In this document: positions 58,071 to 63,019 of the stretch, piece after piece | Layout: each line of letters opens with the position of its first letter | Numbering within the stretch: position 1 is the first letter of the stretch | NCBI GenBank assembly: GCA_022822745.1 | Contig: JAJEAO010000114.1 | Coordinates: forward strand, 1 to 64,000 | DNA: 64,000 nucleotides | Source: Acidobacteriota bacterium | GTDB lineage: Bacteria; Acidobacteriota; Vicinamibacteria; Marinacidobacterales; Marinacidobacteraceae | Direction of reading: 5' to 3' | Position numbers and translations under genes: made by a program | Notes under the pieces: model-generated | Database searches by the model: none | What the model was told of the DNA's origin: nothing | Seen by the model: the letters and a program-made list of their open reading frames with translations, nothing else

Positions 58071-61000
58071 TTGGCCGGATTCCAGACCACCCTGAACCAG
58101 ATCCGCGAACGCGCCCAATCGGAGGCCGAGAAGGGGCGGCTGTTCGAGCGGCTGATGCGGCAGTTCTTCCGCCAGGATCCGGTGTACGGGAAGCGCTTCT
58201 CGAAGGTCTGGCTCTGGTCCGACTGGGCCGCCTCGCGACCGGGCGAGAGCGGTCAGGACATCGGCGTGGATCTGGTCGCGGAGGAGGCCGACGGCAGCGG
58301 GTTCTGCGCCATCCAGACGAAGTGCTACTCCGAGACGACGAGGATCGCCAAGCCTCACGTGGACTCGTTCATTTCCGCCTCGAACCGGGAGCCGTTCACT
58401 TCGCGGATCCTCGTGGACACGGGGGCGAGCTGGGGTCAGAACGCCCTGCGAACGGTCCAGAGAGTCAGACCCCGTTGCCAGGTCGTGCGGTTCAACGACC
58501 TCGACGGCCGCCCGTTCGACTGGCCCGACCTCGACGAGCAGGATCCCGAGGCGCTCGAATGGACCGGAGAGCGGTTCACGCTTCGGCCCCACCAACGCGC
58601 AGCCTTTGACGATGTGACCGCCGGCTTCCGCAAGCACTCCCGGGGACAGCTCATCATGGCCTGCGGGACCGGGAAGACCTTCACCGCGCTGCGGATCGCG
58701 GAAGCGGTGGCCGGGACCGGGAAGCGCGTTCTCTACCTCGTTCCCTCGATTTCGCTGTTCCAGCAGTCCCTCCGGGAGTGGGCTACACACCGGCAACTCG
58801 AACACCGCTACGTCGGGATCTGCTCCGACAGGAAGGCGGGCCGCACCAGCGAGGACGCCTCGATCCTCGAGCTCGAGATTCCCGTGACGACGGATCCCGT
58901 CCGGATCACCGGCGCCCTCAAGAGACACGACGCCGACGCCATGACCGTCGTGTTCAGCACCTACCACTCGCTCCCGCTCGTCGAGCAGGCGCAGGACGAA
59001 GGAGCGCCAGCGTTCGATCTGGTCCTCTGCGACGAGGCCCATCGGACGACCGGCGTGGAGCGTCCGGGAGACAGGACATCGCCCTTCGTGCTCGTCCACC
59101 TCGGCGACCGGATCCGGGCGAAACGACGCCTCTACATGACGGCCACGCCCCGCCTCTACACGGCCGCGGCGAGGCAGAAGGCCGCCCGGCACGACATCGA
59201 GGTCTTCTCGATGGACGACCCCGCGAAGTACGGACCCGAGTTCCACCGGTTGCCCTTCTCGCGGGCGGTCGAGCAGAACCTGCTCTCGGACTACCGGGTC
59301 GCCATCTTCGCCATCTCCGAGGAGGCGGTCGCCGCACAACTCGCTGACCATCATCGGCGTGTCGAGAACGAGAAGGGCAGTCAAATCAGCCTGACTGATA
59401 CGGCGCAGATCATCGGCTGCTGGAGGACGCTCCAGAGTCCCGAGAACCGCGCCGCCGGGGACGGCCCCGGCCCGCTGCGACGCGCCATCGCCTTCACGAA
59501 CCGGATCCTCGATTCCAGGCGGCTGGAACAGCATCAGGATGCGATCGTCCGCGCGGCGATTGCCCAGTTGCCCGAGGATCAGCGCGAGCAGGCCTTGAAG
59601 ATCGAGACGAAGCACGTGGACGGGCAGCACCACGCGCTGGAACGCAAGGCCCGAATCGAGTGGCTGAAGGGCGAAACGCCGGGAACGTGCCGGATTCTCT
59701 CCAACGCCCGCTGCCTCTCCGAGGGGATTGATGTGCCCGCACTGGATGCGGTGCTGTTCATGAATCCCAAGCGCTCCATCGTGGACATCGTGCAGGCCGT
59801 CGGACGCGCGATGCGGAAGGCGCCGGGCAAGAAGTACGGCTACATCGTGCTCCCCGTGGCGATCAAGGCGGGCGCGGATCCCGCCCGGGCGCTCGACGAC
59901 AACGAGCGCTTCCGAGTCGTCTGGGACGTCCTCCGCGCTCTGCGAGCTCACGACGACCGTCTGAACGCCGAGATCAACCAGATTGACCTGAACGAGAGGC
60001 CGACCGAGCGGATCATCTTCACGAGGGGAGACGACGCCCACCAGGACGGGGGCCACGATGGGGTCGGAGCCCCGTTGAAGCTCCCCTTCGGCCCGATGTC
60101 GTTTCCTCCCGACGCGATCTTCGCCAAGATCGTCGAGAAGTGCGGCGACCGCAAGTACTGGGAGACGTGGGCGAAGGATGTCGCCGACATCTTCTCGCGG
60201 CTGGTGGTCCGGATCGAGGCGCTGATCGAGCGCCATCCGAAGGACCTCGACCTCCTGCTCACGAACTTCCACGACAGCCTCCAGGACTCGCTGAACCGGT
60301 CCGTCACGAAGGCCGACGCCGTTCACATGCTGGCGCAGCACATCATCACGCGCCCGGTCTTCGACGCCGTCTTCGCCCACTACGACTTCGCGGCTCGCAA
60401 CCCGGTGGCGCAGGATCTCGACGCGCTCCGTCGCAGCTTCGAGGAGTTCGGCCTGGAGCACGAGACACGGGATCTGGAGAAGTTCTACGAGAGCGTCCGC
60501 AATCGGGTCCAGGGCCTCGACAACAGCGACGCCCGCCAGCGCGTGCTCATGGAGCTCTACGAGAAGTTCTTCTCGACCGCGCTCAAGAAGCAGGCCGATC
60601 GGCTCGGCATCGTCTATACCCCAGCCGAGGTCGTGGACTTCATCCTGCACAGCGCCGATGCCGTGCTGCGGCAGGAATTCGGCAAGGGGCTGAGCGATCC
60701 GGGCGTGCACATCCTGGATCCATTCACCGGGACCGGGACATTCCTGGTGCGGCTGCTGCGCTCCGGCCTCATCCGTGACGAGGACCTAAAGCGGAAGTAC
60801 CGGGAGGAGATCCACGCCAACGAGATCGCGCTCCTCGCCTACTACGTGGCGGCCGTCCACATCGAGGAGGCGTTCCACGGCCGGCTGGGCGAGGGCGCCG
60901 GCTACGAGCCATTCGACGGGATCGTGCTGACGGACACGTTCACGCTCAGCCCCCGGTGGGACTATACGAACCCGCTCCTCGGGCGGAACAGCGCAAGGGT

Positions 61001-62471: not shown

Positions 62472-63019
62472 CGAAGGACGCTATCTTCGACTACGTGTAC
62501 GGCGTTCTGCACTCCCCCGAGTACCGGGAGCGATTTCGCAACAATCTGAACCGGGAACTTCCCCGCATCCCCTTCGCGCCGGACTTCACCGCCTTCGGGA
62601 GCGCGGGCGCCGAGCTGGCCAAACTGCATCTCGGCTACGAGACCGGACCGGAACATCCGCTCGAAGTCGTCGTATCCGGCCTGGGACTGGCCGGCCCCTC
62701 GGACTATCGGCTGACGACGAAGAAGATGCGCTGGGCCAGCAAGGACGAGAAGGCGGAGCTCATCGTGAACGACCGGATCCGCCTTCGCGGGTTCCCGGCG
62801 GAGTGCCACGAGTACATCGTGAACGGTCGCTCCCCGGTGGAGTGGTTCATGGACCGCTACTACATCAAGCGCGACAGGCGGAGCGGGATCGTGAACGACC
62901 CGAACGGCTGGTTCGACGATCCACGTGACCTGATCACGGCGTTCCGACGGATCGTCCACCTCAGCGTGGAGACGGTCCGCATCGTGGACGCCCTGCCGAA
63001 CCCCATCCCGGACCTCTGA
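62072..63019 (+). pseudogene. Out-of-frame C-terminal part of the restriction-modification enzyme
   Basis: Frame 62072-63019 encodes copy 1 of the duplicated segment, a roughly 45-residue Ser-rich stretch where copy 2 is read in the wrong frame, and then the conserved end of type ISP enzymes: DNITDAALQRFRDHYGDD, IFDYVYGVLHSPEYRERF, LPRIPFAPDF, LGYETGPEHPLEV and YIVNGRSPVEWFMDRYY. There is no own start with a ribosome binding site; ATG 62126 is inside the conserved segment. It is open throughout, so a change in GCCA number would join it to the upstream 1300 residues. Confidence 0.82.
62078..62333 (+). repeat. Tandem diverged duplication within the target-recognition region
   Basis: Copy 1 (from 62078) and copy 2 (from 62206), 128 bases apart, encode NRAICVPGVGATKPFSVL, then MVDRMPDLEL or ITDRMPDLHF, then GQCFPR. 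The protein is conserved but many third codon positions differ, so the copies came from two diverged alleles rather than a fresh duplication. Because 128 is not a multiple of three, copy 2 is read out of frame when copy 1 is in frame. The end of copy 2 is approximate. Confidence 0.8.

Follow-up and report, generated by a model that had tools for sequence, protein, structure and literature searches.

What does a run of tetranucleotide repeats do inside the gene of a large restriction-modification enzyme when the reading frames on its two sides disagree? The gene in question occupies 58071–63019 of a 64,000-nt stretch of DNA from an Acidobacteriota bacterium (contig JAJEAO010000114.1, positions 1 to 64,000, forward strand; hereafter the window). 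Its Pfam domains follow the order Mrr_cat_2, ResIII, Helicase_C, ISP_coupler, N6_Mtase and Type_ISP_C, i.e., the single-chain order of nuclease, superfamily 2 (SF2) motor, coupler, N6-adenine methyltransferase (MTase) and target recognition domain (TRD) of Type ISP enzymes, with the TRD split by the frame change. PADLOC matched it to REase_MTase_IIG with 1554 bits. The repeat is GCCA × 12.2 ((GCCA)12.25) with 100% match in TRF, and in 100 dinucleotide shuffles of the window the expected number of runs of five consecutive GCCA units was 0.00. The frame starting at 58071 and the frame from 62072 to 63019 disagree across this tract. With the 12 units of the assembly the upstream frame stops at 62471 (product 1466 aa), 13 or 10 units give a single frame to 63019 (1650 aa), and 14 or 11 units lead into a further frame, that of cassette B described below. 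The unit number thus sets the reading frame, as in phase-variable genes with a simple sequence repeat (SSR). The gene is otherwise intact: its motifs are preserved, and 1317 codons run without a stop. An earlier reading made from the letters alone (the sequence-only reading) had named the enzyme class, placed (GCCA)12 between the DRIFP and SKNRAICVPGVG segments, and pointed out the disagreeing frames and the open frame at 13 or 10 units; the Pfam domains, TRF, the flanks and the frames bear it out on each of these points. We consider it likely that the gene encodes a phase-variable Type ISP enzyme in which the tract serves as a frame selector, deciding which of the alternative target-recognition cassettes is translated.

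After the tract, the last recognition element of the TRD, which corresponds to the β-hairpin and Loop VI of LlaGI, is present twice. Searches with pieces of the protein (tblastn) located the segment NRAICVPGVG...GQCFPRYRF (cassette A) a second time 128 nt downstream, at 62206, in the −1 frame (cassette B). Because of this recurrence, there is a second frame with meaningful content, reached with 11 or 14 units. The C-terminal part (C2) resumes in the frame of cassette A after cassette B, and no third cassette was found in the third frame of the window. According to an alignment with the LlaGI structure 5ffj, in which chain index + 164 gives LlaGI numbering and reproduces H1368, G1372 and Q1373, a cassette spans β-hairpin 1347–1358 and Loop VI 1365–1374 of the TRD, the boundaries of these elements being those published for LlaGI (PMC4872093). 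In LlaGI, H1368, G1372 and Q1373 of Loop VI read base pair +3, and LlaBIII has an asparagine at the position equivalent to H1368 (PMC4872093). At this position, cassette A has a glutamate (glutamine in locus L083), and cassette B has a histidine in all loci that share the layout. Sequence identity of Loop VI is 0.96 among B cassettes, 0.70 among A cassettes and 0.37 between A and B, and the differences between the two lie mainly in this loop, including the residue that reads +3. On the basis of these residues, we predict that base pair +3 is recognized differently by the A and B forms.

The natural A form of homolog L019, modelled with AlphaFold2, has the TRD fold of LlaGI and LlaBIII, with Foldseek matches to 5ffj (E 3.7e-29) and 4xqk (E 2e-27), respectively; the fold also matches DrdV. 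Residues 198–223 and 272–326 of this model, which correspond to the tract and the out-of-frame B segment, are unstructured (pLDDT, the predicted local distance difference test score, <50).

The layout with A and B cassettes occurs in eight loci: the window, L005 (Latescibacterota), L007 and L018 (Gammaproteobacteria), L013 (Thiotrichales), L019 (Gemmatimonadota), L004+L083 (Rhodothermales, where a contig break falls within a CCAA tract) and L173 (whose genome, from the window's phylum, is a single contig). The offset from A to B is 128 nt in seven of them and 137 nt in L018, where both cassettes carry the same 3-aa insertion (8528–8803; GIVQ.SR.RPFS). The shared insertion and the constant offset indicate that the two copies evolve in step within a common scaffold, and the insertion suggests gene conversion or joint adaptation of both copies. 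An SSR lies at the boundary in seven of the eight loci, with differing units (GCCA12, AG24, ACCG11, CAGA13, CGAGC10, CCAA of at least 20 units, and CGAC47). None was found at the boundary in nine close single-cassette homologs, and among the other compared homologs only L027 has one. Close relatives of the window's genome (same family or class) contained no close homolog. A protein scan of viral contigs, together with the pattern of the B cassette and its end, found nothing, plasmid Type ISP relatives all had <60% identity, and a pattern search in 195 genomes of one order returned only an already known locus.

We propose that slippage in the GCCA tract would let ribosomes enter one of three frames. 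In frame a (13 or 10 units), cassette A would be read and the out-of-frame text of cassette B would form a loop of about 45 aa leading into C2. In frame b (14 or 11 units), the text of cassette A would become the loop, and cassette B would be read in the place of A. A programmed +1 frameshift of the release factor 2 (RF2) type at the end of B (GGGGGYAU CUU UGA C), present in six of the eight homologs, would then return the ribosome to C2, so that a complete enzyme carrying the second Loop VI would result. With 12 units, in the third frame, neither cassette would be read, and the chain would lack Loop VI and the guide, so that the enzyme would presumably be off. Probably, then, the unit number of the tract decides whether the enzyme has specificity A, has specificity B or is off.

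The frameshift step can be examined at the end of cassette B, which in six of the eight loci reads exactly GGGGGYAT CTT TGA C (GGGGGYATCTTTGAC). The published prfB motif consists of AGGGGG, three nucleotides, CTTTGA and C (PMC12421855). All RF2-type elements are present in the six homologs, i.e., a Shine-Dalgarno-like GGGGG, a 3-nt spacer, CTT TGA C and a continuation in the +1 frame. Among the loci examined, the 15-mer was found only at the end of cassette B and in prfB loci; four of these genomes have the motif in their own prfB, and prfB of the window's genome reads CGGGGGTTTCTTTGAC. Assuming that conservation acted on nothing but the frame-a peptide GGIFD, six identical spellings would have a log10 P of −12.9 (from codon usage, with independence assumed). 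The distance from NRVIC to DNIT is 57–62 aa when B is joined to C2 by the +1 shift in the six site-bearing loci and 100–111 aa in the A frame; it is 59–62 aa in the single-cassette homologs listed. When CTTT is read as one step in L005, a complete protein to the normal C-terminus results, and the stretch contains no other such step. Alternatively, the B frame may be meant to stop, giving a shorter enzyme without the guide, with the RF2-like site only adjusting how much long product is made relative to the short one. In favour of this, UGA followed by C is a genuine context for termination, only a fraction of ribosomes shift at RF2-type sites (about 6% was reported for one host; PMC12421855), and in the Acidimicrobiia arrays described below stops close the cassettes, with C2 often starting on its own at a codon that overlaps the stop (ATGA/GTGA in L142, L150 and L152). 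But the +1 product has exactly the normal C1–C2 spacing, which a stop-only design does not require, and we regard this alternative as unlikely.

Selection on the two cassettes bears on whether frame b is used at all. Simple on/off switching, in which only the cassette-A frame matters and cassette B is a dead partial duplication, could explain that the B frame of the window stops at 62386 without a shift signal and that L173, another member of this phylum, is found in state A. But the ratio of nonsynonymous to synonymous divergence (pN/pS), calculated over the 28 pairs of the eight loci (and separately for seven loci), differed between frames: in the cassette's own frame it was 0.29 for A and 0.22 for B, and in the alternative frame 2.04 and 1.29, respectively. 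Cassette B is therefore more strictly constrained than A across phyla. For all 28 pairs pN was below pS in the own frame, and between the window and L173 cassette B gave a pN of 0.07 and a pS of 0.52. This purifying selection on B in its own frame indicates that the frame has been translated and used during evolution. The A frame is open through B and the B frame is open through A in 7/7 loci tested, with chance probabilities of 0.001 and 0.003 under independence of the loci, an assumption that does not fully hold. With the RF2 site at the end of B in six loci and two assemblies in the B phase, simple on/off switching appears improbable, more so than a designed stop. The sequence-only reading had pictured a switch between a full enzyme and one without most of the TRD and the C-terminus. 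The SSR at a conserved domain boundary and the three phases agree with this, whereas the two selected Loop VI cassettes in two frames do not, and in six homologs the RF2-type site would let the second frame make a full-length enzyme too.

The tract comparison across related genomes that had been proposed as a check gave differing tracts and all three phases. As assembled, L019 and L173 are in phase A, L005 and L018 in phase B, and the window, L007 and L013 in the third phase, so that repeat units and phases vary at the same site with in-frame and out-of-frame forms. A further (AG)n tract lies at one site in the MTase region of L173 (4135–4180), L167 and L168, which come from three genomes placed in a single genus within the window's phylum. 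It has 23, 37 and 21 units, respectively, and is in frame only in L173; this is variation between species, not within one population. Together, the differing tracts, the three phases and the (AG)n variation make phase variation the best reading. An assembly or sequencing artefact, with the true tract in frame, or a decayed pseudogene would fit the error-prone repeat lengths of contigs from metagenome-assembled genomes (MAGs) and the contig break inside the L004 tract, but is very improbable given 1317 stop-free codons with intact motifs, recurrence of the layout in independent assemblies including the one-contig L173 genome, and three phases among homologs.

Several observations weigh against a frame selector. 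Tract lengths were taken from assembled contigs, chiefly of MAGs, in which repeats can be misjudged, and in L005 a tract is not clearly recognizable. Since the eight loci share ancestry, the significance figures treat them as more independent than they are. The A form carries about 43 extra residues. At the shift site, the window has GGGGGCGTCTTCGAC, in which UGA is replaced by CGA, so its own gene does not carry the RF2-type signal, and L173 has GGAGGGGTCTTCAAC, with UGA also lost, though cassette B is still constrained in both. Because of these losses the RF2 route does not explain B in these two loci, and the mutated site leaves state B uncertain in the window. State B is therefore the least secure part of the scheme as far as the window is concerned; its B form may be truncated or may reach C2 in another way. 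Moreover, layout, frames, selection, site conservation and the three phases are read directly from the DNA, while slippage, frameshifting and a change of specificity in vivo are what we infer from them.

Larger gene architectures appear to follow the same principle. L027, from Acidimicrobiia, led to related genes in 25 of the 397 genomes of its order. In 19 Acidimicrobiia loci examined, the same position holds one to four tracts and mostly three to seven cassettes. Such arrays were noted in L139–L157, L159 and L160; an example is L141 5397–6292 (reverse complement). The usual order is a tract followed by two cassettes, repeated, until a last tract is followed by three cassettes, with successive −1 steps. 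The tracts are thus placed as in a three-way decision tree. From 36 tract ends, a cassette was reached before a stop in 102 of 108 frames, and for non-final tracts one frame continues into the next tract; for comparison, alternative-frame windows in the upstream part were stop-free in 35% (115 nt) and 17% (230 nt) of cases. Own-frame pN/pS was 0.30–0.48 for the array cassette types and 0.73 for one type, and each type occurs once in most arrays. C2 was not located in several of these loci; where its own start overlaps the stop, this suggests a split guide subunit. Each tract would act as a ternary switch leading to the first cassette, the second cassette or the next tract, and the last tract would lead to one of three cassettes. 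There is thus good reason to think, if with somewhat less assurance than for the selector itself, that environmental Type ISP enzymes contain frame-addressed arrays of interchangeable recognition modules, with tracts as ternary switches giving 2 to 7 specificities per gene without recombination, and with the enzyme completed by an RF2-type +1 shift in some lineages and in others by a guide subunit that has its own start. In this view, the window gene is the minimal form of such an array, with one tract, two cassettes and one off frame. On one Acidimicrobiia contig (L156), two Type ISP genes lie in tandem, each with a cassette array (5227–5870 and 10488–11013).

Table 1. Positions of the parts of the Type ISP gene in the window.
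Feature	Position	Strand	Basis
Invariant part (nuclease, SF2 motor, ISP coupler, N6-adenine MTase, first TRD part); TTG start, no internal stops	58071..62022	+	Pfam, PADLOC
Type_ISP_C, first part (TRD core up to Loop V region)	61671..62018	+	PF18135 model positions 2-106
(GCCA)12.25 tract, putative frame selector (13/10, A frame; 14/11, B frame; 12, third frame)	62023..62071	+	Frame arithmetic
Cassette A (NRAICVPGVG...DLELVSKGQCFPRYRFER), in C-terminal frame; Glu at LlaGI-1368 position (62156-62158)	62078..62203	+	tblastn; 5ffj alignment
Cassette B (NRAICVPGVG...DLHFLEFGQCFPRWT), -1 frame; His at LlaGI-1368 position (62284-62286)	62206..62322	+	tblastn, selection
Position of RF2-type shift site; GGGGGCGTCTTCGAC here (UGA lost), GGGGGYATCTTTGAC in six homologs	62336..62350	+	Sequence comparison
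TAA closing the cassette-B frame	62386..62388	+	Sequence
Stop closing the currently encoded third frame (1466-aa product)	62469..62471	+	Sequence
C2, C-terminal part with rest of Type_ISP_C and guide subdomain, common to A and B forms	62336..63019	+	PF18135 129-340

Three further observations were made. Just 3' of the gene, 63542–63907 encodes a small protein whose N-terminus includes a hydrophobic stretch and whose tail is rich in Asp (ACDDDDCDDDDDD). Elsewhere in the window, 36770–36972 holds a 106-bp repeat in 1.9 copies, with 18-bp sub-repeats (GGCGCTCCATACGAGAGC). In L003, an isolated second fragment of a Type ISP C-terminus (13671–13853) lies about 3 kb downstream of an intact gene.

If the proposed selector is correct, simple repeats would address one of several protein modules encoded in overlapping frames, which goes beyond on/off control, and single slippage events would give cells of one clone differing restriction and methylation specificities. 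The RF2-type +1 signal would then also be used outside prfB. Tract length is predicted to determine which N6-methyladenine (m6A) motif is modified. Genes of this kind look broken to annotation pipelines and may often be filed as pseudogenes.

With the known Type ISP enzymes (LlaGI, LlaBIII; HpyAXVIII), the window gene has all domains in common, as well as the TRD fold, ISP_coupler and Type_ISP_C. Unlike the window gene, the members described in the cited papers have one Loop VI in a single frame and no SSR, and the frameshifts in Helicobacter HP0667–0669 are stated not to be caused by repeats (PMC3936762). In the literature on frame-selected cassettes or SSR switching of Type ISP enzymes, that paper was the only near case found; subscription journals were mostly outside the coverage, so the absence of a precedent is not proven. 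The +1 frameshift of prfB has the same sequence GGGGGTATCTTTGAC as the six homologs, but not as the window's own copy, and five of the hosts carry the shift motif in prfB; in prfB the shift serves RF2 autoregulation, whereas in the homologs it lies late in a large gene and would link a cassette back to the C-terminus. Methyltransferases that are switched by slipped-strand changes in SSRs are known from Type III mod, Campylobacter Type IIG and Type I hsdS systems, but these mostly switch on and off or recombine inverted hsdS copies for specificity, rather than choosing a frame. The closest precedent found is the H. pylori Type IIG enzyme JHP1272/HP1353–HP1354, in which a homopolymer tract shifts the frame and the recognition changes between GGWTAA and GGWCNA (PMC3936762). 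This is a two-state specificity switch by frame change, like the tract proposed here. In JHP1272, however, one frame adds a second C-terminal TRD, whereas the present gene has two alternative Loop VI pieces in overlapping frames, one of which would be rejoined by a +1 frameshift in homologs, and relatives carry arrays of up to seven.
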